Origin: Methylonatrum kenyense
GTDB taxonomy: Bacteria > Pseudomonadota > Gammaproteobacteria > Nitrococcales > Aquisalimonadaceae
NCBI RefSeq assembly: GCF_023195885.1
Contig: NZ_JALPKO010000002.1
Coordinates: 186,001-250,000 of the forward strand
Direction: 5' to 3'
Length of the DNA stretch: 64,000 bases
Below, in pieces: positions 5,452 to 57,659 of the stretch. A program made the position numbers and the translations under genes. Every line of letters starts with the position of its first letter. The stretch's first letter is position 1. A model generated the notes under the pieces. That model was not told the DNA's origin. It saw only the letters and a list, made by a program, of their open reading frames with translations, and searched no databases.

Positions 5452-8112
<2,661 letters not shown>

Positions 8113-8151
8113 CGCATCACCTCTTGGGTTGTCTGCGACACCGGGAAATCA

Positions 8152-8179
8152 TGGCTCACCCAGGTGTCTGGATGAGCCA
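8152..8179 (-). promoter_or_regulatory. Leader hairpin upstream of aceE
   Basis: TGGCTCA (8152-8158) and TGAGCCA (8173-8179) pair, with a further CCAG/CTGG stem inside after one G-U position, giving a 12-step stem closed by four bases. It lies about 40 bases before the aceE start, in a 298-base gap (8113-8410) that holds no gene. It could be an operator or an RNA element; it does not match the PdhR operator. No convincing -35/-10 pair was found. Confidence 0.45.
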
Positions 8180-8410
8180 GGGCAGGCAGCCTTGTGGGCC
8201 GGATCCTGGATTGTCGGGGTGCCGCAGTGGCTTTAGGGGCGGTCCGGGGTCAGTGCCGCGCGACCGCCTTCTGGTTTGTTATTTGCCAAGTGCTGCCGGG
8301 CACGGGCAGCGACCATTGCGTCGATTGTCCGCTGAACCCGGTTCACCGTCTTTTTCATGGTAGGTGCGGGGCCGCGGCATTACCAGACAGGGATCATCCC
8401 CGTGCGAGAA

Positions 8411-9052
8411 TTAGCCTTGTTCCGTGGCGGAATTAATCGAACCGCGGCCGGCCGGTGTCACCGACATTCCCGCTGTCACCGCATAACGCATGGCCTCGTC
8501 GATGCTCATGTCCACCGGCGTGACCTTGTCCCGCGGCAGAACCACCGTGTAGCCACCGATCTGGTAACTCATCGGCAGGTAGACGGCGATGTGGTCCGGC
8601 AGGCCCAGCCCGTCCGGCAGGCCCTCGAAGTCCTCCCGCGTGACCACGCCGATCAGGCGGGCCGGAACGCCGGCGATCTCGACATGGACCATCACGACCT
8701 GGCTGGCCTGGTGATCAGCAGTGCGCGAGAAAAACCCCATCAGGTCCTGCACCGCACCGTAGACGGTTTTGACCAGCGGAATCCGGTGCATGATCCGCTC
8801 GCCGAGCTCGAACACCGCACGCACCAGCCAGGCGTTGAGCAGGATACCGACCACGAAGATGCCGCCGATGGCCACCAGTAATCCGAGGCCCGGGAAATAG
8901 GCGGGGAGCAGCCAGGACACCATGCCGCCGATCACCGACTCCAGCAGCGTGGCCAACCAGATGATCAGGTAGATCGTGACGATGATTGGCAGTACGGCAG
9001 CCAGCCCCTTCAGGAACGTGGTGCCGACGAAACGCATCGCGGTCTTGTCCAT
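8411..9052 (-). CDS. DUF502 family membrane protein
   Basis: The 213-residue protein has two hydrophobic spans near the N-terminus (about residues 12-34 and 52-78) followed by a soluble domain with the DUF502 signatures RIMHRIPLVKTVYGAVQDL and YLPMSYQIGGYTVVLPRDKV. Members are inner-membrane proteins of uncertain biochemical role in many Proteobacteria and plants. It begins 104 bases after hemF on the same strand, in a short stretch with no clear terminator. Nothing in the sequence predicts a substrate. Confidence 0.88.
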   Translation of the reverse strand: MDKTAMRFVGTTFLKGLAAVLPIIVTIYLIIWLATLLESVIGGMVSWLLPAYFPGLGLLVAIGGIFVVGILLNAWLVRAVFELGERIMHRIPLVKTVYGAVQDLMGFFSRTADHQASQVVMVHVEIAGVPARLIGVVTREDFEGLPDGLGLPDHIAVYLPMSYQIGGYTVVLPRDKVTPVDMSIDEAMRYAVTAGMSVTPAGRGSINSATEQG

Positions 9053-9156
9053 CGAGAGTCTCTCCGGCGGTGACAGGATCGGCCTTGAGTCTACAGCAGC
9101 CGTTGGGTCCCGAGGTACGGCATGCCGCGTCGAGATCCCCGGTCAGGCCAACACCT

Positions 9157-10251
<1,095 letters not shown>

Positions 10252-42938: not shown

Positions 42939-45563
42939 ATGGTTGATTCGATGAATCGCAAGTACCGCGAGCCGCTGCCGGGCACCGGGCTCGATTATTT
43001 CGATGTCCGCGAGGCGGTGGAGGCGATTCGCCCCGGTGCCTATGCGGGCCTGCCCTTCACTGCGCGCGTGCTTGCCGAAAACCTGGTCCGGCGCTGCTCG
43101 CCGGACCAACTGGAGGACTGCCTGCGGCAGATCGTCGAACGCCGCCGGGATCGGGACTTTCCCTGGTTCCCGGCACGCGTGGTCTGCCATGACATCCTCG
43201 GCCAGACCGCGTTTGTCGACCTGGCCGGGCTGCGCGATGCCATCGCCGCCCAGGGTGGTGACCCGGCCCAGGTGAACCCCGTGGTGCCGACCCAGCTCAT
43301 CGTCGACCATTCGCTGGCCGTCGAGCATGCCGGTTTCGAGAAGGACGCCTTCGAGAAGAACCGCGCCATCGAGGAGCGGCGGAACGCCGACCGCTTCCAT
43401 TTCATCAACTGGACCAAGCAGGCCTTCCGCAACGTCGATGTGATCCCGCCCGGCAACGGCATCATGCACCAGATCAATCTGGAGAAGATGTGCACGGTGG
43501 TGGAATCCCGCGACGGCGTGGCGTTCCCGGACACGCTGGTTGGCACCGACAGTCACACGCCGCATGTGGATGCCCTCGGCGTGCTGGCCATCGGCGTCGG
43601 CGGTCTCGAGGCCGAAAGTGTGATGCTCGGGCGGCCCAGCTACATGCGGCTGCCGGACATGGTGGGCGTGGAGCTCAGCGGTAAGCCCGCACCGGGCATT
43701 ACCTGCACCGACATCGTGCTGGCCCTGACCGAGTTCCTGCGCAAGGAGCGGGTGATCTCGGCTTATCTGGAGTTCTTCGGCGAGGGTGCTGCCGCGCTGT
43801 CGGTCGGCGACCGTGCCACGATTTCCAACATGACACCCGAGTTTGGTGCCACCGCGGCGATGTTCTCCATCGACCAGCAAACCCTGGACTACCTGAACCT
43901 GACCGGGCGTGAGCCGGAGCAGGTGCAGCTGGTGGAGACGTATGCGAAGACCGTCGGCCTCTGGTCCGATGACCTGGAGGCGGCGGAGTTCGAGCGGGTG
44001 CTGCGCTTCGACCTGTCCACCGTGGTGCGCAACATGGCCGGACCGAGCAATCCGCACAAGCGGGTGGCCACCAGCGACCTCGCCAGTGCCGGCATCGCCG
44101 GCCCGGTCGAGCAGCGCGACGACGGCCTGATGCCGGATGGTGCGGTGATCATCTCGGCGATCACCTCCTGCACCAATACCAGCAATCCGCGCAATGTCAT
44201 CGCCGCCGGACTGCTGGCACAGAAGGCCAATGCGCTCGGCATGCAGCGCAAGCCCTGGGTCAAGACGTCACTGGCGCCGGGCTCGAAGGCGGTGCAGCTC
44301 TACCTGGAGGAATCCGGTCTGCTGCCGGAACTGGAGCAGCTCGGTTTCGGCATCGTCGCTTTCGCCTGCACCACCTGCAACGGCATGAGCGGTGCGCTGG
44401 ATCCGGCCATCCAGCAGGAGATCGTCGATCGGGATCTGTATTCGGTGGCGGTGCTGTCCGGCAATCGCAATTTCGACGGCCGCATTCATCCCTACGCCAA
44501 GCAGGCCTTCCTCGCCTCGCCGGCGCTGTGCGTGGCCTATGCCATCGCCGGCACCATACGCTTCGATATCGAGAAGGATCCGCTCGGCGTCGATGCCGAC
44601 GGCAGGCCGGTGACCCTGAAGGACCTCTGGCCCAGCGATGCCGAGATCGACGCGGTGGTGGCCGAACACGTCAAGCCGGAGCATTTCCGCAGCGTCTACA
44701 CGCCGATGTTCCGTCTGCAGCCGGCGGCCGCGGCGGAGGTTTCGCCGCTCTACGAGTGGCGGCCCGAAAGCACCTATATCCGCCGCCCCCCGTACTGGGA
44801 GGGTGCGCTGGCACGGCAGCCGGCGCTGAGGGGGCTGCGTCCGCTGGCGGTGCTGGGTGACAACATCACCACCGACCATCTGTCGCCGAGCAACGCCATC
44901 CTGGCGGACAGCGCCGCCGGCGAATACCTGGCGAAGATGGGTCTGCCGGAAGAGGACTTCAATTCCTACGCCACCCATCGCGGTGATCACCTGACCGCTC
45001 AGCGGGCCACCCTGGCCAACCCGAAGCTGATCAACGAAATGGCGGTGGTCGATGGTGCCGTGAAGCAGGGTTCTCTGACCCGCCTGGAGCCGGACGGCCA
45101 GGTCATGCGCCTGTGGGACGCGATCGAAACCTACATGGAACGGAAGCAGCCGCTGATCATCATTGCCGGTGCCGACTACGGCCAGGGTTCGTCACGGGAC
45201 TGGGCTGCCAAGGGCGTTCGCCTGGCCGGGGTCGAGGCCATCGTGGCCGAGGGTTTCGAGCGCATTCACCGGACCAACCTGGTGGGCATGGGCGTGTTGC
45301 CCCTGCAGTTCGAGGGCGGCACCACGCGCAAGACACTGGCGATCGACGGCAGCGAAACCTTCGATGTGGACGGTGAGCTGGCGCCGGGCGCACGCCTGCG
45401 CCTGCGTATCCACCGCCGCGATGGCGACACCACCGAGGTCCCGGTGATCTGCCGGCTGGACACTGCCGAGGATGTCTCGATCTACGAGGCCGGCGGTGTG
45501 CTGCAGCGCTTCGCCAAGGACTTCCTGGCCGCCGAGGCCGGCGGCGAGAGTCGGAGGGCCTGA
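42939..45563 (+). CDS. acnD: Fe/S-dependent 2-methylcitrate dehydratase AcnD
   Basis: AcnD is the aconitase-like enzyme that dehydrates 2-methylcitrate in PrpD-independent pathways and needs PrpF. The 874-residue protein has aconitase motifs with cluster-ligand Cys in ITSCTNTSNPRN and FACTTCNGMSG, and the swivel-domain GADYGQGSSRDWAAKG. GCAGGAG precedes ATG 42939. Its stop overlaps the prpF ATG by one base, as expected for partners used together. Confidence 0.95.
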   Translation: MVDSMNRKYREPLPGTGLDYFDVREAVEAIRPGAYAGLPFTARVLAENLVRRCSPDQLEDCLRQIVERRRDRDFPWFPARVVCHDILGQTAFVDLAGLRDAIAAQGGDPAQVNPVVPTQLIVDHSLAVEHAGFEKDAFEKNRAIEERRNADRFHFINWTKQAFRNVDVIPPGNGIMHQINLEKMCTVVESRDGVAFPDTLVGTDSHTPHVDALGVLAIGVGGLEAESVMLGRPSYMRLPDMVGVELSGKPAPGITCTDIVLALTEFLRKERVISAYLEFFGEGAAALSVGDRATISNMTPEFGATAAMFSIDQQTLDYLNLTGREPEQVQLVETYAKTVGLWSDDLEAAEFERVLRFDLSTVVRNMAGPSNPHKRVATSDLASAGIAGPVEQRDDGLMPDGAVIISAITSCTNTSNPRNVIAAGLLAQKANALGMQRKPWVKTSLAPGSKAVQLYLEESGLLPELEQLGFGIVAFACTTCNGMSGALDPAIQQEIVDRDLYSVAVLSGNRNFDGRIHPYAKQAFLASPALCVAYAIAGTIRFDIEKDPLGVDADGRPVTLKDLWPSDAEIDAVVAEHVKPEHFRSVYTPMFRLQPAAAAEVSPLYEWRPESTYIRRPPYWEGALARQPALRGLRPLAVLGDNITTDHLSPSNAILADSAAGEYLAKMGLPEEDFNSYATHRGDHLTAQRATLANPKLINEMAVVDGAVKQGSLTRLEPDGQVMRLWDAIETYMERKQPLIIIAGADYGQGSSRDWAAKGVRLAGVEAIVAEGFERIHRTNLVGMGVLPLQFEGGTTRKTLAIDGSETFDVDGELAPGARLRLRIHRRDGDTTEVPVICRLDTAEDVSIYEAGGVLQRFAKDFLAAEAGGESRRA

Positions 45564-46753
45564 TGGCGGCGGCACCCCAGGTCCGCATTCCGGCCACCTA
45601 CATGCGTGGCGGCACCAGCAAGGGCGTATTCTTCCGTCTGCAGGATCTGCCCGAGGCGGCGCAGCAAGCCGGTCCGGCGCGGGACGCCCTGCTGCTGCGG
45701 GTGATTGGCAGCCCCGACCCCTACGCCAAGCACACCGATGGCATGGGTGGCGCCACCTCCAGCACCAGCAAGACCGTGATCCTGTCGAAGAGCGAGCGTC
45801 CCGACCACGACGTGGACTACCTGTTCGGCCAGGTGGCCATCGACCGGCCGGTGGTCGACTGGAGCGGCAATTGCGGCAATCTGTCGGCGGCAGTTGGTCC
45901 GTTCGCTATTGCCGGCGGGCTGGTCGATCCGGACCGGATCCCCGACAACGGCGTGGCCGAAATCCGTATCTGGCAGGCGAATATCGGCAAGACCCTGATC
46001 AACCGGGTGCCGATCAGCGACGGCCGGGTGCAGGAAACCGGCGACTTCGAACTGGATGGCGTGACCTTTCCCGCTGCCGAAATCCCAGTGGTGTTCATGG
46101 ATCCCGCCGATGGCGAGGGGGCCTTGTTCCCCACCGGGGCAACCGTCGACACGCTGGACGTGCCGGGCTTCGGCCGGCTCGAGGCGACGCTGATCAACGC
46201 CGGCATCCCGACAGCCTTCGTGCGGGCCGCCGACCTGGGTTTCAGCGGCACCGAACTGCAGGAGGCGATCAACGGCAACGCCCGCTCACTGGATCGCCTG
46301 GAAGGCATCCGCCAGACCGCTTCGATCCGCATGGGGCTGGCGGACAGCCCGGAGGCCGCCGCCAACCGACAGCACACGCCGAAAGTGGCCTTCATCGCGC
46401 CACCGGCCGACTACAGCGCATCGAGCGGCACGCTGATCCACGCCACCGACATTGATCTGCTGGTCCGGGCCGTGTCCATGGGCAAGCTGCACCACGCGAT
46501 GATGGGCACCGCCGCCGTGGCCATCGCCACCGCCGCCGCCGTTCCCGGCACGCTCGTCAATCAGGCCGCCGGTGGTGGCGAACGAAAGTCGGTCCATTTC
46601 GGCCACCCGTCCGGCACCCTGCGCGTCGGTGCCGAAGCGGCCGAAGCCGATGGCCAGTGGACCGTCAGGCAGGCCACGATGAGCCGCAGCGCCCGAATCC
46701 TGATGGAAGGCTGGGTACGGGTGCCCCCGGAAACCCTTGTTGGCCCATATTAA
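45563..46753 (+). CDS. prpF: AcnD-accessory isomerase PrpF
   Basis: PrpF is a diaminopimelate-epimerase-fold isomerase that acts on the AcnD product (2-methylaconitate cis-trans isomerisation). The 396-residue protein has PATYMRGGTSKGVFFR at its N-terminus, GGATSSTSKTVILS, WSGNCGNLSAAVGPFAI with an active-site Cys and the C-terminal GHPSGTLRVG. In Pseudomonas-type clusters prpD follows directly; here prpD is 9.5 kb downstream beyond the defence block. The gene itself looks complete. Confidence 0.95.
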   Translation: MAAAPQVRIPATYMRGGTSKGVFFRLQDLPEAAQQAGPARDALLLRVIGSPDPYAKHTDGMGGATSSTSKTVILSKSERPDHDVDYLFGQVAIDRPVVDWSGNCGNLSAAVGPFAIAGGLVDPDRIPDNGVAEIRIWQANIGKTLINRVPISDGRVQETGDFELDGVTFPAAEIPVVFMDPADGEGALFPTGATVDTLDVPGFGRLEATLINAGIPTAFVRAADLGFSGTELQEAINGNARSLDRLEGIRQTASIRMGLADSPEAAANRQHTPKVAFIAPPADYSASSGTLIHATDIDLLVRAVSMGKLHHAMMGTAAVAIATAAAVPGTLVNQAAGGGERKSVHFGHPSGTLRVGAEAAEADGQWTVRQATMSRSARILMEGWVRVPPETLVGPY

Positions 46754-46837
46754 AGGCTGGAACCCCTCCGCACGTATTTGCGATCCTTAGTAAAGCAATG
46801 CTTTACTAAGGATCGCTTTCTCGCCCATATAAAAGCC
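46743..46837 (+). repeat. Direct repeats flanking the palindrome between prpF and fic
   Basis: GCCCATATTAAAGGC at 46743-46757 (it contains the prpF stop) and GCCCATATAAAAGCC at 46823-46837 are near-identical and bracket the palindrome. They may mark a small insertion or duplicated regulator half-sites. Confidence 0.4.
46780..46816. promoter_or_regulatory. Perfect 18-bp-arm palindrome upstream of fic, probable operator
   Basis: GCGATCCTTAGTAAAGCA (46780-46797), a single A, and the exact complement (46799-46816) form a 37-base palindrome 31 bases before the fic ATG. The stem is AT-rich at its centre (TTAGTAAAG/CTTTACTAA), and no T-run follows, which fits a protein-binding site better than a terminator. 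The Fic protein has a C-terminal winged helix that could bind it. Confidence 0.6.
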
Positions 46838-46847
46838 AGGGTTTGCC

Positions 46848-48005
46848 ATGCAGGAGTCGGCTTCGGCGCAGCGCGCAGGACGGTACATTCGGCAGCCGAC
46901 CGGCTACCGGGCTTTTCATCCGGCCCCGCTTCCGCCTGATCCGCCCATCCGTCTGGATGGAGAGATCCAGTTTTGCCTGTCCCAGGCGGATCGTGCCTTG
47001 GGTCGCCTGGACGGCTCGATACTCACCTTGCCGCATCCCGACTTGTTCGTGGCGATGTATGTCCGCCAGGAAGCCGTGTTGTCGAGCCAGATCGAAGGCA
47101 CGCAGAGTTCATTGCAGGATCTGCTGGCGGCTGAAGCGAAAATTCTCTCCCGGGATGGCTCCTCCGACGTCAACGAAGTCGTCAATTACGTCCGGGCCAT
47201 GAATTATGGCCTTGAGCGGCTAAAGTCATTGCCGGTTTCGGTGCGTTTGATTCGGGAAATCCACGCCGAGTTGATGCACGGTGTGCGAGGCCATCATCTG
47301 ACTCCGGGGGAGCCGCGAATCACACAGAACTGGATCGGTTCTGCGGGATGCACGCTGTCCGAGGCCACGTATGTACCCCCACCGCCCCAGGAACTCCCCC
47401 GCCTGCTCGGCGAACTGGAGACGTTCCTGCACGCCGACTCAGCTCTGCCGCTGCTTGTGCGAATCGGGCTCGCCCATGCCCAGTTCGAAACCATTCACCC
47501 GTTTCTTGACGGCAATGGCAGAGTCGGCCGGCTGCTGATCACATTCCTGCTCTGCGAGAAACAAGCATTGATCAAGCCAGTGTTGTATCTGTCGCATTAT
47601 TTCAAACGGCACCGTCAGGAATACTACGATCGCTTGCAGGCTGTCAGGGACCGCGGCGATTGGGAGCAATGGCTGGCCTTCTTCCTCCGTGGAGTCACCG
47701 AAGTCAGTCAACAGGCCACGGAAACGGCGCGACAGATTCTGTTACTGCGCGAAGCGCACAGGGATCTGATTACCGCGCATTTCGGACGTGCCGCGGCCAA
47801 TGGGCACAAAGTGCTGGAATACCTGTTTGATCATCCCATTGTGTCGGTCAATGAGATACAGGCGTTAATCGGCACGACGTATCCCTCGGCGAATAATCTC
47901 GTCCAGGAGCTGGAAAAGCATCGGGTCCTTCGGGAAGTCACCGGTAGAAAGCGTCACCGGCGTTTTGCCTACCGGGATTACACGAACCTGTTCTCTGATT
48001 CCTGA
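46848..48005 (+). CDS. Fic-family AMP-transferase with C-terminal winged helix
   Basis: The 385-residue protein has the full Fic motif HPFLDGNGRVGR (about residues 216-227), where the His is catalytic and GNGR binds ATP phosphates. A class II inhibitory helix, SSQIEG at residues 79-84 with the Glu83 that blocks ATP gamma-phosphate, lies in the N-terminal Fic_N domain. Residues about 310-375 (VNEIQALIGTTYPSANNLVQ) form a winged helix. Such proteins AMPylate targets and may autoregulate. It is the first gene of the block inserted after prpF, 76 bases before mod. Confidence 0.9.
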   Translation: MQESASAQRAGRYIRQPTGYRAFHPAPLPPDPPIRLDGEIQFCLSQADRALGRLDGSILTLPHPDLFVAMYVRQEAVLSSQIEGTQSSLQDLLAAEAKILSRDGSSDVNEVVNYVRAMNYGLERLKSLPVSVRLIREIHAELMHGVRGHHLTPGEPRITQNWIGSAGCTLSEATYVPPPPQELPRLLGELETFLHADSALPLLVRIGLAHAQFETIHPFLDGNGRVGRLLITFLLCEKQALIKPVLYLSHYFKRHRQEYYDRLQAVRDRGDWEQWLAFFLRGVTEVSQQATETARQILLLREAHRDLITAHFGRAAANGHKVLEYLFDHPIVSVNEIQALIGTTYPSANNLVQELEKHRVLREVTGRKRHRRFAYRDYTNLFSDS

Positions 48006-48081
48006 CGTTTTATGGCGCACCGACGTGAGAATACTCTTGAAATGCCGCAAAGCAGTGCGATTTGAATAACAGGGTAGCAAC

Positions 48082-51000
48082 ATGACGATTTCCGAAGCGC
48101 AGTTGCGTGAGCTGATTTTAGCCCTGATGCCGAAAGACGGCAGCCCCATCGGCAATGTGCGCTTGATGGCGGAAATCAGTGCCCGTTCCGGTGAACAGGT
48201 CGATCAGGTCATCTATCAGCAGGTTCGCGACACGCTGATCGACGAAGGCCTGCTTGGCCGGGGACGCGGCCGTGGCGGTTCGGTCTTTCGACGGGATGAC
48301 ACCCTGCAGCCGTCTCCGGCCATGCCGGTCAATGATGGCAACCCACCGGTCGATCTGTCGCTACGCATGCAGGACGTCCCCCCTGAATTGCCCCTGGCCG
48401 AGAAGCCGCATGGGGCCAGAAAGGCGGCTCGCCGCCCGGCGACATCGAATATGGCCGACTCGCAGGTGCTTGCCTACCGCCATGACGAGAAACGCACCAA
48501 TAATCCCCACGTGGGCATGGTGGATACCGCCAGCGACGGCGTGGAGGAGAAGACCACCTGGGCCTACGATCCGCATCTCGATCCCGAGCTGCAGTTTGAT
48601 TCCTCCAGGACCCGCGCCCAAGTCGAGCGCCTGATTGACGATGCCCTGGCCTCCGGCGACCAGGAGCAGATGAAGGCCGCCCTCGAGGAGCTCAAGCGCC
48701 TGCAGTCCCCCTACCTGCAGTGGACCGGCAAGGCCGAGCGCACCAGCTTCGAGGTCGATACCGTTTCCCTGCACGTTCACGAGCGCATTGATCCCGCCAC
48801 TATCCTTGGCGAGGTGCAGAAGCCCATGAAGGCCGGCAAGAAAGGCGGCAGCGCCTTCCAGCCCGACATGTTCCATGCCCCCTTCGAGAATCTGCCGCTA
48901 CGCGAGGCCATAGACTTCTACAAGCATGAGCGTGACTGGGCCAACCGCCTGATCGCCGGCGACTCGCTGCTGGTGATGAACTCCATGCTGCAGAAGGAAG
49001 GCATGGCCGGGCAGGTGCAGATGATCTACATCGATCCGCCCTACGGCATCAAATACGGCTCCAACTTCCAGCCGTTTACCCACAGGCGCGACGTCAAGGA
49101 TCGCAAGGACGAGGACCTGACGCAGGAACCGGAGATGATCAAGGCCTTTCGGGATACCTGGGAGCTGGGCATTCACTCCTATCTCACCTATCTGCGCGAT
49201 CGGCTGCTGTTGGCCCGGGAGCTGCTCAGTGAGAGCGGATCGGTGTTTGTTCAGATTTCTGAAGAAAACATACATTTAGTAAAAAACCTACTTGACGAGA
49301 CATTTTCTAACGCAAATTTCTTGAGCTTGATCACGGTTGTGAAAACAAGCGCCCAAGAGTCAGAAAATCTACCAAATGTCTGTGATTACTTGCTTTGGTA
49401 TTGCAAGGAAAGGGAGTATGTAAAATACAACAAAGCCTGGATGGAGAAGGTCGAAGAAGACTTGATGTCTACAGAGTACCGGAAGCTGAAATTCCCTGAT
49501 CTCTCTACGCGACCGCTTAAAAAAAGTGAGCGGCTTTCAGAAACAAGAATCCCTACTGATGCCAGACGTTATCGTCAAGACAACATTGTTTCTCAGCGGC
49601 CTCCAGGAAGTTTCCCGGTCAATTACCAAGGGATTTCTGTCAGACCTATCACCGGCTATTGGAAAACTGGCGAGGCAGGCTTTCCTCGACTTCTTCGCTC
49701 CTCAAGGATCGAATGGCGAGGCAAGATGCTTAGCTACGTTAGATATCTTGAAGATTTCCCCGTAAAGCCAATCTCTAACTTTTGGCCAGATGTTCGCTTT
49801 TCCAGTAGAGCTGAAGATAAGCAGTATGTAGTGCAAACTTCCGGTAAAATTGTAGAGCGCTGCCTTCTCATGACCACCGACCCAGGCGATCTGGTGCTGG
49901 ACCCCACCTGCGGCTCCGGTACCACCGCCTACGTGGCCGAGAAGTGGGGGCGCCGCTGGGTCACCTGCGACACCTCCCGGGTGGCCGTCACCCTGGCCAA
50001 GCAGCGCCTGATGACCGCCAGCTACGACTACTACGAGTTGAAGTACCCCCAGGAGGGGCTGGGTGGCGGCTTTATCTACAAGACGGTACCGCATATCACC
50101 CTGAAATCGATCGCCAACAACCCGGAGATCGACGAGCTCTACGAGCAGCACCATCCGGCCATCGAGCAGGCCCTGGCCGAATTGAATGCCTCGCTCAAGG
50201 GCAAGTCCATCACCTTCACTGTCACTGAGGGCGGCCGCAAGGGCGACAAGGTCGACTTCGCCGCCCCCGACAGCAAGGCGGTTACGCTGCCCTCAGGCGA
50301 GACCGCCAAGGTCAACGAGCTGCTCGAGTGGGAGGTCCCCTTCGATTATCCCGACGAGTGGCCGGAGTCCGCCAAGCCGCTCTTCGAGGCCTTCCACGGC
50401 GCTCTTCAGACCATGCAGCGCCGCATGGACGAGAGCATCGCCAACCATGCCGGCCAGGAGGTGCTCTACGACCAGCCCGAGGTGAGCCGCGACAAGCTGC
50501 GCATCACCGGCCCCTTCACCGTCGAGGCCGTGCCCTTCGCCACCGTACTGGGCCTGGACGAGGCCCAGCAGCCCAAGGAGGCCGATGTGGCGGTGGCGCG
50601 CTCAGGGGCCACCTCCCGCCATGCCCAGTGGCGGGAAGAGCTGCTAAAGGCCGGTATCCGCGGCAAGGGGGGCCAGCACCTCAAGCTGATGGACCTGGAG
50701 ACCCTGCCCGGTGCCAAGTATTTGCATGCGGTCGGCACGGTGGCGGAGACCGGTGAGCGAGTCGCCGTCAGCTTCGGCCCCGAGTACGCCGCCCTGGAGC
50801 AACGCCAGGTGGAGATCGCCAAGAACGAAGCCGGCGACCTCTTCCCGCTGCCCAAGCTGCTGGTGTTCTGCGCCTTCACCTTCGACCCGGAGGCCGCCAA
50901 GGACATCGACAGCATCAAGGGCATCCAGGCCCTCAAAGTGCAGATGAACACCGACCTGCTTACCGAGGACCTCAAGAAGAACGCCCGCAGCAACGAATCC

Positions 51001-51387
51001 TTCTGGCTGATGGGCCAGCCAGATGTCGAGGTGCATGCGCTTAAGGACGGCAAGCTGCAGGTCGAGGTGCACGGCTTCGACTACTTCGACACCAAGAGCG
51101 GCGAACTCAAGTCCGGTGGCAAGCGTGACATCGCCGTGTGGGAGCTGGATACCGACTACGACGACCGTTCCCTCTACCCGCGCCAGGTGTTCTTCCCCAT
51201 GGCCGGCAAGAAGGATGGCTGGTACAAGCTCAAGAAGGATATCCGCGCCGAGCTCAACGAGGAGCTGCTGGGCAAGTACCACGGCACCAGATCGCTACCC
51301 TTCGAGCCCGGCGATAACCGCTGCATCGCGGTGAAAATCGTCGATAACCGCGGCATCGAATCGCTGAAAGTCGTTCGGCTGGATTGA
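48082..51387 (+). CDS. Beta-class adenine DNA methyltransferase, Type III-like Mod subunit
   Basis: The 1101-residue protein starts with a winged-helix-like segment (about 1-70), then a charged region, and a methyltransferase with DPPY (residues 318-321, 49033-49044) before DPTCGSGTTAYVAEKWG (from residue 607). The DPPY-TRD-SAM-motif order is the beta class used by Type III Mod subunits. Between them, residues about 390-595 (49256-49862) are encoded by much AT-richer DNA than either side. The C-terminal third is unrecognised but typical of large Mod proteins. It forms an operon with the broken ATP-binding gene and the restriction subunit. Confidence 0.9.
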   Translation: MTISEAQLRELILALMPKDGSPIGNVRLMAEISARSGEQVDQVIYQQVRDTLIDEGLLGRGRGRGGSVFRRDDTLQPSPAMPVNDGNPPVDLSLRMQDVPPELPLAEKPHGARKAARRPATSNMADSQVLAYRHDEKRTNNPHVGMVDTASDGVEEKTTWAYDPHLDPELQFDSSRTRAQVERLIDDALASGDQEQMKAALEELKRLQSPYLQWTGKAERTSFEVDTVSLHVHERIDPATILGEVQKPMKAGKKGGSAFQPDMFHAPFENLPLREAIDFYKHERDWANRLIAGDSLLVMNSMLQKEGMAGQVQMIYIDPPYGIKYGSNFQPFTHRRDVKDRKDEDLTQEPEMIKAFRDTWELGIHSYLTYLRDRLLLARELLSESGSVFVQISEENIHLVKNLLDETFSNANFLSLITVVKTSAQESENLPNVCDYLLWYCKEREYVKYNKAWMEKVEEDLMSTEYRKLKFPDLSTRPLKKSERLSETRIPTDARRYRQDNIVSQRPPGSFPVNYQGISVRPITGYWKTGEAGFPRLLRSSRIEWRGKMLSYVRYLEDFPVKPISNFWPDVRFSSRAEDKQYVVQTSGKIVERCLLMTTDPGDLVLDPTCGSGTTAYVAEKWGRRWVTCDTSRVAVTLAKQRLMTASYDYYELKYPQEGLGGGFIYKTVPHITLKSIANNPEIDELYEQHHPAIEQALAELNASLKGKSITFTVTEGGRKGDKVDFAAPDSKAVTLPSGETAKVNELLEWEVPFDYPDEWPESAKPLFEAFHGALQTMQRRMDESIANHAGQEVLYDQPEVSRDKLRITGPFTVEAVPFATVLGLDEAQQPKEADVAVARSGATSRHAQWREELLKAGIRGKGGQHLKLMDLETLPGAKYLHAVGTVAETGERVAVSFGPEYAALEQRQVEIAKNEAGDLFPLPKLLVFCAFTFDPEAAKDIDSIKGIQALKVQMNTDLLTEDLKKNARSNESFWLMGQPDVEVHALKDGKLQVEVHGFDYFDTKSGELKSGGKRDIAVWELDTDYDDRSLYPRQVFFPMAGKKDGWYKLKKDIRAELNEELLGKYHGTRSLPFEPGDNRCIAVKIVDNRGIESLKVVRLD
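49256..49862 (+). other. AT-rich target-recognition module inside the methyltransferase gene
   Basis: Counting three consecutive 60-base lines from 49261 by hand gives about 30, 43 and 38 % G+C, against about 60-65 % in the flanking parts of the same gene. The edges coincide with the end of the conserved SEENIHLVK segment and the start of DLVLDPTCGSG. The frame stays open throughout, as expected for a replaced specificity module. Confidence 0.75.
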
Positions 51388-51390
51388 TCC

Positions 51391-53277
51391 ATGACAGAGC
51401 AACTGAGCCTCTTCGAGGTACTGCTTCGCCATGAAGGCTTCGATACGGAATACAAGTCGGCGCGTGGCGGGATGCCGAAGGATCTGTGGGAAACCTACAG
51501 TGCTTTTGCCAATACCTCCGGGGGAGTGGTCTATCTGGGCGTTAAGGAGGGGGACGAGGGAGCTGTTACATCCGGCCTGAAGGCGTCGGATGTGGAGCAT
51601 CTGCGTCGTGCGTTCTGGACCACCGTTAACAATCGTCAAAAGGTTAGCGCGAATATCCTGCTGGAAAACCACGTCGCTGTAGAGGTCTTCCAAGGCGACT
51701 ATATCCTGGTGATTGAGGTGCCACGGGCCTCGCGCAGCGAGCGACCGGTTTATATCGGTGTTGATCCTTTCAGGGGCAGTTATCGCCGTAACCATGAGGG
51801 AGATTTCCGGTGTAACGAGGCCGAAGTACAGCAAATGTTTGCTGATCGCCTTGATCAGGAGCCGGCCGACAGTCGTATTCTCGAACTTTTCGAATTCGAC
51901 GATCTGGATGCATCGTCTCTCAAGCAGTTCCGCAACCGCGTGGCTTCCCGAGTGCCGGATCACCCCTGGCTCGTGGAAGATGAGATTGGCTTGCTGACCA
52001 AGCTAGGTGGATGGCGCAAGGACCGACAGACCGGCCGGGTTGGTCTGACGTTGGCGGGTCTGCTGATGTTCGGCAAGACAGAGGCGATCTAGGACAACGG
52101 TGCACTCCCTGGCTTTCAACTCGACTATCGGGAGCGCTTGGCAGATGACGATGCTACTCGCTGGAGCGATCGGCTCACCATCGACGGTGCCTGGGAAGCC
52201 AATCTGTTTCAGTTTTATCTGCGCGTGTCGCAAAAGCTGTCGCACGATGCAGCGTTGAAAGTGCCTTTCCAGCCTGATCGGCGCGGTCAGACTGACGCCC
52301 ATGAGGCACTGAAAGAAGCACTGGTAAACGCTCTTATTCATGCCAACCATTATGGCCAGGGTGGTATTTTGGTCGACCGCTTCAAGGACCGCTTCGAGTT
52401 TTCCAACCCCGGAACCTTGCTGCTCTCGCAGGAACAGTTGCTGGCTGGTGGCGTCAGTGAGTGCCGCAATAAGTCATTACAGAAAATGTTTCAGCTGCTC
52501 GGCGTAGGCGACAAGGCGGGTTCAGGCCTGGACAAGATTCGGCGCAGCTGGCACGCCCAGGTGTGGCAACCGCCCAGCCTGAAGGAAACCCTTCGTCCTG
52601 ACCGGGTCATCCTCACACTGCCGCTGATTAGCGTGATGCCCGAGGATGTGATGGCGAAGCTGAATGAGCGTTTCGGAGCTGCCTTCAAAGCGCTCACTCC
52701 AGACGAAGCCCAGACGCTTGTGATAACAGCGCTGGAGCAGCAGGTGACCAACGGTCGTTTGCAGGAGATGTTGACTCTGCATCGGGTCGATATCACCCAG
52801 ATGCTCAATGGCCTTGTGGAGAAGGGCATGCTGGTACCCCACGGCCGCCGCCGGGGGGCTTATTACACTTTGCCCCTGTTGGCGCCAACTAATTTGAAAG
52901 CGGAGGCCAGCTCCCCCCACAAGGACACTAGCTCCCCCCACAAGGGCACTAGCTCCCCCCACAGTGAGGAGCACTTACCGTATAGCGAAAGCGCCAACGA
53001 TGATCTGATATGGGAAGATTTGACGCGGATCGCCGCCCCAGTCGCTGAAGCCCGGCGTACCCCACCAGAGACCATGCAGGCGACATTGCTCCAACTCTGT
53101 CGAGACAGATTCCTCACGCTTGCTCAGCTGTCTGATCTGCTCCGGCGTTCGCCCAAAAATATTGGTGAGCGCCACATCGCCCCCCTGGTCAAGGCTGGAA
53201 AGCTGCAGCTCCGCTACCCCAATGTCCCGAACCACAGCCGGCAGGGCTATCGCACGGTAGAAGGAGTTACCGAATGA
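51391..53277 (+). pseudogene. Schlafen/AlbA_2-type ATP-binding protein gene interrupted by one in-frame TAG
   Basis: The frame from ATG 51391 runs to TAG at 52090-52092 and continues in the same frame (DNGALPGFQLDYRERL) to 53277, so one base change separates it from a 628-residue protein. The first half has the AlbA_2 signature DTEYKSARGGMPKDLW and FANTSGGVVYLGVKEGDEG. The second half has an HATPase_c_4-like part (NALIHANHYGQGGILVDR, GVGDKAGSGLDKIR), winged helices and a 7-residue repeat. It starts three bases after mod and overlaps the restriction gene by four. Mutation, suppression or a sequencing error are all possible; a downstream start could give a C-terminal fragment (52138-53277). Confidence 0.85.
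52909..52971 (+). repeat. Three tandem 21-base repeats in the Schlafen-like gene
   Basis: Units starting AGCTCCCCCCACAAGG occur at 52909, 52930 and 52951, encoding SSPHKDT, SSPHKGT and SSPHSEE. The third unit is diverged at its 3' end. The 21-base period keeps the frame, so unit number can vary without frameshift. It links the ATPase part and the C-terminal winged helix. Confidence 0.8.
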
Positions 53278-56126
53278 CGGCCAAGTCATTGATCATCAAC
53301 TCTCCCTACGATGCTCCCTGGGCCTACTGGGAGCGAGACGGCACGCAGCTGAGCCTCCAGCAGGGTCGTCGTCCCGCGGCCTACGAGATTTTCGATACCC
53401 GCAACAACACCCAGCGCACCGAGCCCCTGGAGCAGGTCAACAAGATTCGTCAGCGCGTCGATCAGTGGCGGGCAGACGGCTACCCCGGTGTCACCAGCGC
53501 CACCCGCCAGCTCCTCGAGCACTGGCATGCGAGGGGTGATTGGGATCCGGATGCCTGTCGCTGGGAGGGTGGGCCGCGGCAGTACCCATTCTATTTCTGC
53601 CAGCTCGAGGCCATCGAGACGCTGATCTGGTGGCTGGAGGCCCAGGAATCGTACCGCCAGGGCGTCTTCCTCAGCGGTGATGGCGGCCCCTGGGAACGCA
53701 TCTGCAACAAGATGGCCACCGGCTCCGGCAAGACCCAGGTGATGTCGCTGATCATCACCTGGCAGACGCTGAACGCCATCCACTATCCCAAGGATCGCCG
53801 CTACTCCAGGGCGGTGCTGATCGTGACTCCCGGCCTCACGGTGAAAAGCCGCCTGCAGGTCCTGAAGCCAGGCCACCCCCAGAACGTCTATGACGAGTTC
53901 AATCTCTGCCCCAGTGAGGCCATGCGGCAGCAGCTCAACCGTGTCGAGCTCGTCATCGAGAACTGGCACACCCTGATGCCGCTGAAGGAGCCGAACCGTT
54001 CCGTGGTCAGGAAGGGCAAGGAAAGTGACGAAGCCTTCACCCGCCGGGTGCTGGGGGCGCTTGCCAACGAACGCGATCTGATTGTAATCAACGACGAGGC
54101 CCACCACGCCTACCGCAAGCCGGCCGAGGCCAAGGTCAGCAAGAAGCAGGCCGAGGAACTGGGTATCGATTTGGACGAGGCCACCCGCTGGATCGAGGGG
54201 CTGGACCGCATCCACAAGACGCGCCGCATCCGCCGCTGCTTCGATCTCTCCGCCACGCCTTTTGCCCCCACCGGCAAGAGCAACACGGAGTCCGGCCTGT
54301 TCGATTGGATCGTGTCCGATTTCGGCCTCAACGACGCCATCGAGGCCGGGCTGGTCAAGACCCCGCGGGTGGTAGTGCGCGACGACGCCTTGGCCAACGC
54401 CAGGACCTATGCCAGTAAGCTCTATCACCTCTATCGCGAGGAGGAGGTGAAGGAAGACCTCAATCGTCGGGCCGAGGTCGCCGCCCCCCTGCCCGACCTG
54501 GTGCAGAAGGCCTATGCCCTGCTGGCCTACGACTGGAAGGAAACCCGGCAGCAGTGGCAGGAAGCCGGACACACGATTCCCCCGGTGATGCTCACCGTCT
54601 GCAACCGCACCGAGACTGCGGCGCGTATCGAGCACTTCTTCAACGGCGGTGATTGCCTGATCCAGGAGACCCAGGCCCCGGATGCCACCCTGCGAGTGGA
54701 CTCCAGGGTGCTCGAGAAGGCCGAGCAGGGGGAAACCAGCAGCAGCAAGGACAAGCAGTACGCCGCCCGGTTGGAGGCCCTGATCGAAGCGGCTGGGCTA
54801 CCGGCGGACAAGAAGGCCGACCTGCTGGCCATGAAACAGGAGGAGCAGCTGCGTGCCCTGGTCGATACTGTTGGCAAGCGCGGCCAGCCGGGCCAAAACC
54901 TGCAGAACGTCGTTTCGGTGGCCATGCTTTCCGAGGGCTGGGACGCCGCCAATGTCACCCACATCATGGGGCTGCGTGCCTTCACCAGTCAGCTGCTCTG
55001 CGAGCAGGTGATTGGGCGCGGCCTGCGTCGTGTCTCCCATGACATGGACGCCGACCGCAAGTTTCTTCCCGAGTACGTCAATGTCTTCGGCGTGCCGCTC
55101 TCGATCTTCCAGGATGCCAGCGAAGGCGGCGAGGCACCGCCGCCGCCGAAGCCAAGCGTGCGCGTTGAGGTGGAGCCTGGCCGGAATCACCTTGAAATTT
55201 GCTGGCCCAACGTTGATCGCATCGACAGCGTTCTCAAGCCGGAGCTGGTGATGGATTGGCAGGGCGTGCCGATTCTGACCCTGGACCCCGCCCAGACCCC
55301 GCTCAACGCCGATATTGCGCCCTCACTAACGGGATCTCCCAACCTGGCCATGGCCACCGAGATCGATCTGGAGCGGGCGGTTGACGATTTCCGGTTGCAG
55401 AATCTGATCTTCCGGGCGGCCCGCAAGCTCTATCTGCAAAACGAGGCCGCCTTCGGAGGGGACAAGCAGTACCTCGCGGTTCAACTGATCCGGTTGGTCG
55501 AACAGTTTTTGGAGAGCCGAAAGCTGGATATTCCAAGCTTGTGGCATCAAGACCCGTTCCGCCGTCGCCTGCTGTTCGCGTTGAACATGGATACCGTGGT
55601 CAACCACGTGAATCGTCATGTCAGCGAACAGAACGTGGAGCGTCAGGAGCTGGTCTTCGATGAACACCAGCCCATTGGTGCCACGTCTTACATGCGCCCC
55701 TGGCTCACCACCAAGCCCTGCGCGGCGACGGAGCGATCGCAGATCAGTCATGTTGTCTACGACAGCACCTGGGAAAAACTGGTGGCAGATATCTGCGAGG
55801 AGCACTCGAAGATTACCGCCTGGGTCAAGAACGACCACATCGATTTCAAGGTGCGCTACCTGTGGCGGGGCTCTTCCCGCAACTTCGTTCCCGACTATCT
55901 GATCCGCCTCGCCAATGGCAAGACGCTCGTGCTCGAGGTAAAGGGTCAGGACAGCCAGCAGAACGCCGAGAAGCGGACGGCCATGGCAACGTGGGTAACG
56001 GCCGTCAATGAGCAGGGCGGATTCGGTCAGTGGGTGTTCGATACCGTGTTCGAGCCGGCGAAGACGCGAGACGTTATCAACCGCCATATTGAATCTCGTA
56101 CTGCGGACGGAGTCGCCGTTAGCTAA
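53274..56126 (+). CDS. Restriction subunit: superfamily 2 helicase with C-terminal PD-(D/E)xK nuclease
   Basis: The 950-residue protein has Walker A in MATGSGKTQVM (about residues 146-153), DEAH box in INDEAHHAYR (about 272), motif VI-like IGRGLRRVSHD, and near the C-terminus FVPDYLIRLANGK followed by LVLEVKG, a PD-ExK nuclease core (about residues 871-889). It resembles the Res subunits of Type III-like systems, specifically the group often annotated as BPTD_3080-type. Start ATG 53274 overlaps the preceding stop. It should translocate or loop DNA and cut sites unprotected by the partner methyltransferase. It is the last defence gene, 93 bases before prpD. Confidence 0.9.
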   Translation: MTAKSLIINSPYDAPWAYWERDGTQLSLQQGRRPAAYEIFDTRNNTQRTEPLEQVNKIRQRVDQWRADGYPGVTSATRQLLEHWHARGDWDPDACRWEGGPRQYPFYFCQLEAIETLIWWLEAQESYRQGVFLSGDGGPWERICNKMATGSGKTQVMSLIITWQTLNAIHYPKDRRYSRAVLIVTPGLTVKSRLQVLKPGHPQNVYDEFNLCPSEAMRQQLNRVELVIENWHTLMPLKEPNRSVVRKGKESDEAFTRRVLGALANERDLIVINDEAHHAYRKPAEAKVSKKQAEELGIDLDEATRWIEGLDRIHKTRRIRRCFDLSATPFAPTGKSNTESGLFDWIVSDFGLNDAIEAGLVKTPRVVVRDDALANARTYASKLYHLYREEEVKEDLNRRAEVAAPLPDLVQKAYALLAYDWKETRQQWQEAGHTIPPVMLTVCNRTETAARIEHFFNGGDCLIQETQAPDATLRVDSRVLEKAEQGETSSSKDKQYAARLEALIEAAGLPADKKADLLAMKQEEQLRALVDTVGKRGQPGQNLQNVVSVAMLSEGWDAANVTHIMGLRAFTSQLLCEQVIGRGLRRVSHDMDADRKFLPEYVNVFGVPLSIFQDASEGGEAPPPPKPSVRVEVEPGRNHLEICWPNVDRIDSVLKPELVMDWQGVPILTLDPAQTPLNADIAPSLTGSPNLAMATEIDLERAVDDFRLQNLIFRAARKLYLQNEAAFGGDKQYLAVQLIRLVEQFLESRKLDIPSLWHQDPFRRRLLFALNMDTVVNHVNRHVSEQNVERQELVFDEHQPIGATSYMRPWLTTKPCAATERSQISHVVYDSTWEKLVADICEEHSKITAWVKNDHIDFKVRYLWRGSSRNFVPDYLIRLANGKTLVLEVKGQDSQQNAEKRTAMATWVTAVNEQGGFGQWVFDTVFEPAKTRDVINRHIESRTADGVAVS

Positions 56127-56219
56127 TGAATTGAATGGCTCGCGAAAGCGGCGACGAGAGTGCGCGCTCTGCCGTGCCTACACTATTGGGAGCCTATCCC
56201 GCGGTGGAGGAGACGGAAC

Positions 56220-57659
56220 ATGGCAGCCAAGTCCGGTCGGCGGCCGAAGCCCGACAGGGAACTGCTGGCGATCGCCGATTACGTCTGCGGATCGGCGGCC
56301 GGCGGCAAGCTTGCTTTCGAGACCGCCCGTTACATGCTGATGGACAGCCTGGCCTGCGCCATTCTGGCCTTGCGCTATCCGGCCTGTACCAAGCTGCTCG
56401 GGCCGGTGGTGCCGGGCGCGGAAATGTCGAACGGCGTGCCGGTGCCGGGCACCAGTTATCGGCTCGAGCCGGTGCAGGCGGCATTCAATATCGGCGCAAT
56501 GATTCGCTGGCTCGACTTCAACGACACCTGGCTGGCAGCCGAGTGGGGGCATCCATCGGACAATCTGGGTGGTGTGCTGGCGGCCGCAGATTACCTGAGT
56601 CGCCAACGCCTGGCGCGTAATGAATCACCGCTGGTCATGCGCGATGTGTTACAGGCTGCGATCCGCTGCCACGAGATCCAGGGTGTACTGGCGCTGGAGA
56701 ACAGCTTCAATCGGGTCGGGCTGGACCATGTGATGCTTTGCCGTATCGCTACCGCGGCGGTGACAACCCGGTTGCTTGGCGGCAGTCGCGAGGATGTGGT
56801 CAACGCCGTGTCCCACGCCTGGATCGACGGCTCCAGCCTGCGCACCTACCGTCACGCGCCGAATACCGGATCCCGCAAGAGCTGGGCGGCCGGCGATGCC
56901 TCGGCCCGCGGCCTGCGCCTGGCACTGATCTGTCTGACCGGCGAGATGGGCTATCCCACCGCCCTGTCCGCGAAGGGCTGGGGCTTCAACGATGTCCTGT
57001 TCGGTGGCCGCAGGCTCAGGGTGAAGCAGGCCTACGCCAGTTACGTCATGGAAAATGTCCTGTTCAAGATCGCCTATCCCGCCGAGTTCCATGCCCAGAC
57101 CGCGGTCGAGGCGGCCATGGCCCTGCATCCGCAGGTCAGGGGTCGCCTCGATGACATCGACCAGGTCCTGGTCGAGACCCAGGAAGCCGCCGTGCGCATC
57201 ATCGACAAGAGCGGACCGCTGCATAATCCGGCCGATCGCGATCACTGTCTGCAATACATGGTGGCGGTGCCGCTGATCTTCGGCCGCCTCACTGCCGAGG
57301 ACTACGAGGACGGCGTTGCCGCCGATCCGCGTATCGATGCCTTGCGCAAGCGCATGCAGGTTACCGAGAACACGGAGTTCTCGAAGGACTACCTCGACCC
57401 GAAGAAACGCGCCATCGGCAACGCGGTAACGGTGCTGTTCAAGGACGGCAGCAGCACCGACCGCGTCGCCGTGGACTATCCGGTCGGCCACCGCCGGCGG
57501 CGCAAGGAGGGTATCCCCCTGCTGCTGCAGAAGTTCGAGGATGCGCTGGCGAGCCGCTTCGCGCCGCGCCAGGCGGAGAGCATCCGCGAGGCCTGTTCCA
57601 CGCAGAAAGGTCTCGAGGCAATGTCGGTCCCTGCGTTCATGGACGTGTGGGCGGCGTAA
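56220..57659 (+). CDS. prpD: 2-methylcitrate dehydratase PrpD
   Basis: PrpD belongs to the MmgE/PrpD family and dehydrates 2-methylcitrate without an iron-sulfur cluster. The 479-residue protein has [18 protein letters not shown] and [15 protein letters not shown] signatures. ATG 56220 follows GGAGGAGACGGAAC, a strong ribosome site; the frame opens farther upstream without support. It is presumably the original neighbour of prpF, now separated by the defence genes. A TACACT at 56179-56184 could be a -10, but no -35 is clear, so its own promoter is unproven. Confidence 0.93.

Follow-up and report, generated by a model that had tools for sequence, protein, structure and literature searches.

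A Schlafen-type gene in an exchangeable slot of a type III-like restriction-modification operon in Methylonatrum kenyense: a candidate back-up RNase, interrupted in this strain

In this article, I will discuss a gene of the Schlafen type that is embedded in a restriction-modification (R-M) operon of Methylonatrum kenyense, on a stretch of 64,000 nucleotides (contig NZ_JALPKO010000002.1, positions 186,001 to 250,000) that was analysed as a whole, is called the window here and supplies the coordinates used below. On its forward strand, the middle gene (51391-53277) begins 3 bases past the methyltransferase gene mod (48082-51387) and its end overlaps the helicase-nuclease gene res (53274-56126) by 4 bases in the open reading frame list, and these coordinates confirm the tight, operonic packing described in the first-pass annotation of this DNA. 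Judged by their domains, mod and res form a two-gene, type III-like R-M operon, and the reading that I favor, with a probability of about 0.58, is that this operon has an exchangeable slot between its two genes and that the Schlafen protein encoded there would serve as a PrrC-like back-up RNase with restriction failure as its trigger. It is favored because there are precedents for it, PrrC in mechanism and, in architecture, the Schlafen-kinase-winged-helix proteins linked to bacteriophage exclusion (BREX) systems. In the window strain itself the gene carries an in-frame stop, and this back-up is probably broken.

The arrangement is more than chance. A scan of named genomes, with the latter half of the protein as query, supplied 104 relatives, of which the best 80 were kept (loci are given as L numbers). 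Their neighbors were detected at E 1e-8; several contigs are short, and R-M genes that are more distant could be missed. Eight of the 80 are complete mod-Schlafen-res operons with Mod and Res of the window type (L052-L056, L058, L060, L063) and L182 is a ninth complete triad with the same gene order; because all nine share this order, the mod-Schlafen-res link is not accidental. The 4-base overlap between Schlafen and res recurs as well, as read from the start of the Res match relative to the Schlafen stop codon (L052-L056, L058, L060, L182) or from open reading frame calling (L063). Parts of the window-type operon are found at five loci (L057, L061, L062, L064, L131), classical type III genes adjoin the Schlafen gene at eight, with both mod and res present in six (L068, L071, L072, L075, L080, L112), BREX genes adjoin it at three (L081, L114 and, through a 29% BrxC match, L085), and type I genes at four (L078, L121, L123, L141). 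In L141 the order is hsdM-hsdS-Schlafen-hsdR, a placement between hsdS and hsdR that I take to be the prrC position. In type I, classical type III and BREX loci alike, to judge from gene order, the usual place of the family is immediately ahead of a restriction or effector gene.

The first-pass annotation proposed to count how frequently the middle gene is retained and would have taken rarity as refuting the link; the outcome is split, as the gene is rare when one starts from Res, whereas starting from Schlafen the association recurs in a specific position. Among 16 genomes (G numbers) with a Res at least 44% identical to that of the window, there is nothing between mod and res in three (G701, G811, G253), and the existence of such empty slots bears out the earlier statement that Mod and Res alone suffice for an operon of this kind; other genes occupy the slot in 11, including G488 and G492, where no mod was matched and the stretch ends with the contig, G654, where mod is incomplete, and G578, where Res is partial. 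These Res counts leave out matches of 33-38% identity, one partial match of 43% and six plasmid records at 60-80% identity, and some of the searches were run at E 1e-180, at which short Res fragments would be missed. The plasmids of Rhizobium etli and Sphingobium likewise have mod-res with nothing between, the R. etli case being probably identical to G253 because the identities are equal, and a Planktothrix plasmid holds an AAA_15 ATPase and a 232-residue protein in the slot. The Schlafen gene is therefore optional, exchangeable cargo rather than an obligate component.

The alternative cargo is varied. HEC-01A and HEC-01B fill the slot in L165 (PADLOC, 513 and 180 bits), an ATPase matching PD-T4-4_A (383 bits) with a weak PD-T4-4_B partner (36 bits) in L168, an AAA_15 ATPase with a 192-residue partner in L169, a 467-residue ATPase recognized by eye with a 562-residue AAA_21 protein in L171, an AAA_21 ATPase with PDC-M56B in L183, an ATPase recognized by eye with a protein whose DUF4276 match falls short of the cut-off in L172, a BrnT toxin with a PIN protein in L166, a nucleotidyltransferase with a HepT-like protein (MNT-HepT) in L173, read by eye as the same in L181, and a broken ATPase region, again by eye, in L174. 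In L170, the region 5754-10122 holds Multi_ubiq, Prok-E2_E, ThiF-JAB and DUF6527 genes and, by eye, an ATPase and a PIN-like protein; this ubiquitin-like set lies directly upstream of a res of the window clade, with mod unmatched on the fetched stretch.

The edges of the slot can be placed to the nucleotide. When the window is compared with L165, the 3' end of mod aligns over 1572 bases at 89% identity, and the alignment runs through the final base of the mod stop codon (51387). Nothing aligns from there to 53261, 13 bases before the res start, where identity resumes and continues at 84% to the end of res, and what lies between these junctions is Schlafen in the window and HEC-01A/HEC-01B in L165; the alignment edges are so precise that two similar operons evidently differ by a whole cassette between genes. 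Comparison with L183 gives the same pattern less sharply, identity resuming about 90 bases inside res.

The Schlafen/AlbA_2 domain, ATPase and winged helices that had been named from the letters alone are all recovered in the middle gene, in the order AlbA_2, GHKL ATPase, winged helix-turn-helix (wHTH), repeat linker, wHTH. Pfam finds SLFN_AlbA_2 in the first part (43.6 bits, cut-off 25.3) and HATPase_c_4 in the second (48.4 bits, cut-off 26), and two winged-helix regions are seen in the AlphaFold model of an intact relative (L054; mean predicted local distance difference test score, pLDDT, 81.5). Across alignment A1, which holds 40 homologues with L054 as the reference, E15 and E20 are each present in 40/40, E53 in 39/40 and K22 is invariant, so a three-carboxylate site is present, and the GHKL residues E309, N313, H317, N339, G341, G377 and G379 are invariant too. 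A profile search of PDB sequences returned 2kyy (RecG-related, 3e-10) and 3lmm (3e-6) and, weakly, chains of SLFN14, SLFN13-type, SLFN11 and SLFN5 proteins (E 1e-4 to 0.04), in which E15/E20/E53 align with residues counted as SLFN14 E206/E211/D249, the counterparts of SLFN13 E205/E210/D248, whose mutation is reported to lower or abolish cleavage (PMC5862951).

Structure comparison points the same way. The L054 model matches DIP2311 (3lmm) over its full length (Z 21.2) with a root-mean-square deviation of 14.4, so the match holds domain by domain, and it also matches the SAMD9 tRNase domain (Z 10.0), histidine-kinase CA domains and winged helices. For the 233-residue product of the window (pLDDT 88.5), the 20 best structural matches, counted one per entry, are SAMD9, Schlafens 5, 11, 12, 13 and 14, and two other AlbA_2 proteins (Z 6.9-10.3), and the next match below these reaches only Z 5.0. 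A shared fold and conserved residues fall short of proof, and RNase activity is a prediction here.

The middle gene is not the single open frame that the first-pass annotation took it to be. Its open first part (51391-52092, +; 233 residues), the predicted Schlafen catalytic lobe, ends in an in-frame TAG at 52090-52092, and the second part, with HATPase_c_4 and the winged helices, continues in the same frame (52093-53277, +), its first listed start being TTG at 52138; the stop thus falls between the AlbA_2 part and the ATPase-wHTH part. Of the 80 relatives, 78 have an open frame with a sense codon here, and in the remaining two the frame is broken at about the same place (L110) or the region is deleted (L131). 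The ratio of nonsynonymous to synonymous substitution rates (dN/dS), taken between the window and seven relatives (L052-L056, L058, L182), is 0.06-0.13 for the first part and 0.10-0.17 for the second, with 0.06-0.10 for Res and 0.12-0.24 for Mod, values that are rough since dS is near or above 1 in most pairs; L131 (0.37 over 171 codons of the second part) and L057, whose genes are partly deleted, were left out of these ranges. Such ratios indicate that the middle gene has been constrained, under purifying selection, for most of its history, and because of this constraint and the lack of other visible decay past the stop, the stop would appear to be either a recent, real mutation or an assembly error. 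That it is an assembly error, or that the gene now yields two polypeptides (AlbA_2 alone, and an ATPase-wHTH protein from an internal start), is a conceivable account of the stop, one compatible with any reading of the gene's function, though I would not count on it: the break at a domain border, the intact remainder of the frame with its similarity to relatives, and the break at about the same place in L110 speak for it, whereas the read-through in 78/80 relatives and the absence of a closely downstream ATG speak against it.

Other copies have decayed differently. In Halomonas ventosae (L131, 7983-8633) an in-frame deletion has removed AlbA_2 and ATPase and left a wHTH-repeat-wHTH remnant standing between a mod of 1092 residues and a res of 938 residues, and in Halomonas socia (L057, 7651-9242) most of mod was deleted together with the AlbA_2 part. 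The mod start of L057 now adjoins the second half of the Schlafen gene, and its res match is full length. In L061, L062 and L064, Mod or Res is lost or broken. A preference of lesions for the Schlafen gene, considered from the window, L131, L057 and L110, was dropped in view of the damage to Mod or Res in L061, L062 and L064.

Under the back-up reading, the intact Schlafen protein would be held silent by its own ATPase/wHTH half, by the Mod-Res complex or by both; when restriction fails or is disabled by a phage, tRNA or other RNA would be cut by the AlbA_2 domain and translation would stop, the course that PrrC takes alongside the type I enzyme EcoprrI. Mod and Res most likely still work in the window strain, and the Schlafen protein would be lost or reduced to its 233-residue catalytic domain. 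The first-pass annotation had suggested an accessory role within a possible three-component system, of which the accessory role survives, with a back-up RNase as its best-supported form, while the obligate third component does not, given the counts that follow and the stop in this copy.

Several points weigh against this reading. Schlafen is found in only two of the 16 genomes mentioned above (G000, G1164), and of 398 genomes of the phylum 27, including that of the window, exceed the cut-off of NF046055, the NCBIfam model of the BPTD_3080 family restriction endonuclease, yet a tblastn search with the window protein (E 1e-5) found Schlafen in 0/20 of the loci fetched around the other BPTD_3080-family Res, these 20 being drawn from the 26 other positive genomes with 6 left out. 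From the Schlafen side, 52/80 loci have no R-M or BREX neighbor detected, a group that includes short contigs and loci with weak or distant matches left uncounted (L079, L091, L095, L096, L100). The in-frame stop makes Schlafen function in the window strain doubtful, the dN/dS values carry the roughness noted with them, winged helices would also suit a transcription regulator, and the lesions in relatives also hit Mod or Res (L057, L061, L062, L064), so the Schlafen gene is not singled out as toxic. In mammalian Schlafens the core of each chain contains two AlbA_2 lobes, a form from which bacterial Schlafens are expected to differ. Pfam detects one AlbA_2 domain per protein here, the mammalian feature being absent, and a dimer therefore has to be assumed, where the SLFN13 abstract speaks of a pseudo-dimer.

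Among the rivals, the one that survives best is an autonomous Schlafen abortive-infection gene that shares the transcript and senses neither Mod nor Res, which I regard as possible while not expecting it. It would account for the copies without R-M neighbors in Bacteroidota, on plasmids and in streptococcal phage satellites, and for a slot that also holds matches to systems listed by PADLOC on their own (PD-T4-4, HEC-01). Relatives of the first domain are present in 14 records of the phage collection, nine of them from Streptococcus, of which the eight listed are satellite phages, and the streptococcal satellite relatives are 31-37% identical among the matches listed. In L192, a relative of the first domain (5980-7494) adjoins the integrase gene and carries the annotation RecG-like helicase itself. 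Against autonomy, the recurrent place beside restriction or effector genes of several kinds of system suggests coupling, although selection for co-expression could suffice to explain it.

The main other rival to the RNase readings is a control factor, a winged-helix/ATPase protein that would regulate mod and res and delay Res until the host DNA is methylated. Its two winged-helix regions, its location between mod and res, and the deletion in L131, which spares exactly the wHTH-repeat-wHTH part there, would fit such a role; I nevertheless think it unlikely, as mod-res pairs of relatives exist without Schlafen or with unrelated cargo, RNase-type carboxylates that a pure regulator does not need are invariant or nearly so, and 52/80 copies have no R-M or BREX partner detected. 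An accidental insertion without function in the window operon, for which the rarity from the Res side and the stop could be cited, is very improbable in the face of nine complete triads, purifying selection and precise junctions.

The back-up RNase reading can be widened to a more general one, in which Schlafens of this architecture would serve methylation-based immunity as guards that can be plugged into different systems. A single RNase family would dock in type I, classical type III, BPTD_3080-type and BREX operons, as a rule just ahead of the effector gene; the GHKL ATPase and the assembled restriction machine would silence the RNase, and a phage that disables the machine would release it; the tandem repeats that link the winged helices would act as sensor or bait; and the mod/res junction would be a cassette site at which the operon trades one back-up weapon for another. 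Taken jointly, all these elements make a proposal that I would call doubtful. The linker in the window is encoded by a 21-bp tandem repeat of 2.6 copies (52909-52963, +), giving heptads between the winged helices, and repeats are found widely, with 63 of 74 C-terminal parts beating all 100 shuffles and a period mostly of 7 (35) or 4 (14) residues, but their sequence differs between lineages and, among the closest relatives, L052-L055 and L058 fail the shuffle test. The linker is possibly a sensor or a simple spacer. A conserved four-residue linker motif was considered and rejected, the pattern having been picked after seeing the data and occurring in at least three copies in only 13/40 linkers.

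The assignment of the host operon rests on the following matches. Mod (1101 residues) has the N6/N4-type methyltransferase domain expected of a type III Mod (Pfam N6_N4_Mtase 118.3 bits; PADLOC MTase_III 597 bits), and Res (950 residues) is a superfamily 2 helicase with ResIII (29.9 bits, cut-off 22.5) that scores 1158 bits against NF046055 (cut-off 800). The C-terminal RE_endonuc domain of Pfam is present in the Res of L075 and has no match in the window Res at E 0.001, where a PD...EVK-like motif was seen by eye only. A central stretch of mod fails to align at the DNA level with L165 (about 49257-49815) and with L054 (49276-49854) while its surroundings are 83-89% identical, and it is probably a swapped target-recognition part. 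Of the 20 fetched Res loci from other genomes, 19 are from another branch, whose Res shares 30-32% identity with that of the window. Mod was matched at 17 of these loci, and at 16 of them res comes first, the exception being L049. In this order the larger branch of the BPTD_3080 family (L032-L047, L050) differs from the branch of the window.

The operon lies in what is probably a genomic island. Four genes, all on the + strand, namely a SoFic-like fic-HTH (helix-turn-helix) gene (46848-48005; Pfam Fic_N, Fic and HTH_13), mod, the middle gene and res, are enclosed by prpF of the 2-methylcitrate cluster on the left (45563-46753, +; NCBIfam prpF 705 bits) and prpD on the right (56160-57659, +; PRK09425 821 bits, prpD 789 bits). 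In 3/3 congeners prpF is followed directly by prpD with none of the four genes intervening, and G+C is 0.57-0.62 across the four against 0.64-0.68 in the flanks; because of both observations, a segment of about 9.4 kb probably entered the prp cluster. The fic-HTH gene, which the first-pass annotation had drawn into the system, is better seen as a neighbor outside the conserved unit: Fic has no match in the fetched flanks of any of the nine complete triads, L182 included, and tblastn with the window Fic matched 2/100 loci (L064, L121), both weakly, so it was rejected as a component. Upstream of fic lies a perfect 17-bp inverted repeat with a 3-nt loop (46780-46816; fold z -7.3), the 19-bp core of which has a single place in the genome when up to one mismatch is allowed, and which is a possible operator of the Fic-HTH protein; a scan of 46600-48200 for promoters and terminators gave one promoter-like and two terminator-like sites against 0.7 and 1.1 expected, nothing above chance.

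These observations join the Schlafen RNases of animal antiviral immunity with defences embedded in bacterial R-M operons. The mod/res slot also offers natural comparison sets, since related Mod and Res pairs hold Schlafen, HEC-01, PD-T4-4-like genes or no cargo at all; what a back-up effector contributes, and whether it guards restriction, could be measured directly in them.

Compared with known systems, the protein resembles SLFN13, SLFN11, SLFN14 and the SAMD9 tRNase domain in fold and three-carboxylate site, and it differs from the mammalian Schlafens, with their two AlbA_2 lobes, in joining a single lobe to a GHKL ATPase. In architecture, the closest likeness is to the Schlafen RNases with a minimal histidine kinase and wHTH that are described beside BREX and BREX-related loci in at least 1017 taxa, have the same domain order, are embedded by core genes and are proposed as back-up RNases (PMC12839542); L081, L114 and, via the 29% BrxC match, L085 are BREX cases of the same Schlafen family, and that paper is concerned with BREX and BR systems, whereas the host here is a mod/res pair of the BPTD_3080 family in which the cargo difference is seen at nucleotide resolution. 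That paper also describes HmaC as a DUF499-type ATPase (PMC12839542), and Hma was rejected as an identity for this operon, the middle gene being AlbA_2/HATPase_c_4 and PADLOC (E 0.001) giving no Hma match for the middle gene, for Res or, among the best 25 of 42 matches, for Mod. PrrC in EcoprrI is likewise an NTPase-controlled RNase encoded within an R-M operon, reported to be kept inactive by the R-M system that hosts it until an anti-restriction peptide from a phage sets it free (PMC3710099, PMC3874165), but it combines an ABC-ATPase with a HEPN anticodon nuclease, where the window gene has AlbA_2 and HATPase_c_4 in a type III-like operon.

Embedded defences are already an established idea, known as 'guilt by embedding' for defence genes inserted between the genes of another system (Payne 2024 preprint, via the accounts in PMC12629846 and PMC12255303), and TgvAB (GmrSD) inside a type I R-M system of VPI-2 in V. 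cholerae (PMC11411939) and DarTG2 inside an E. coli type I system (PMC12255303) are both reported to be protective; these are accessory defences in R-M operons as well, with different proteins and a different host type. PADLOC has HEC-01 and PDC models that fit cargo of the mod/res slot, whereas the Schlafen cargo has no NCBIfam match and, in PADLOC v2, only a weak Csa3 match (18 bits) to its second part; the preprint may already list this host. A literature search by titles, abstract starts and term counts of the papers listed, with preprints and subscription papers mostly outside it, found no Schlafen in a type III-like operon and no paper on BPTD_3080. As far as these searches show, what is new relative to the known systems is a type III-like host with a nucleotide-precise slot, and one Schlafen family that recurs across several kinds of host.

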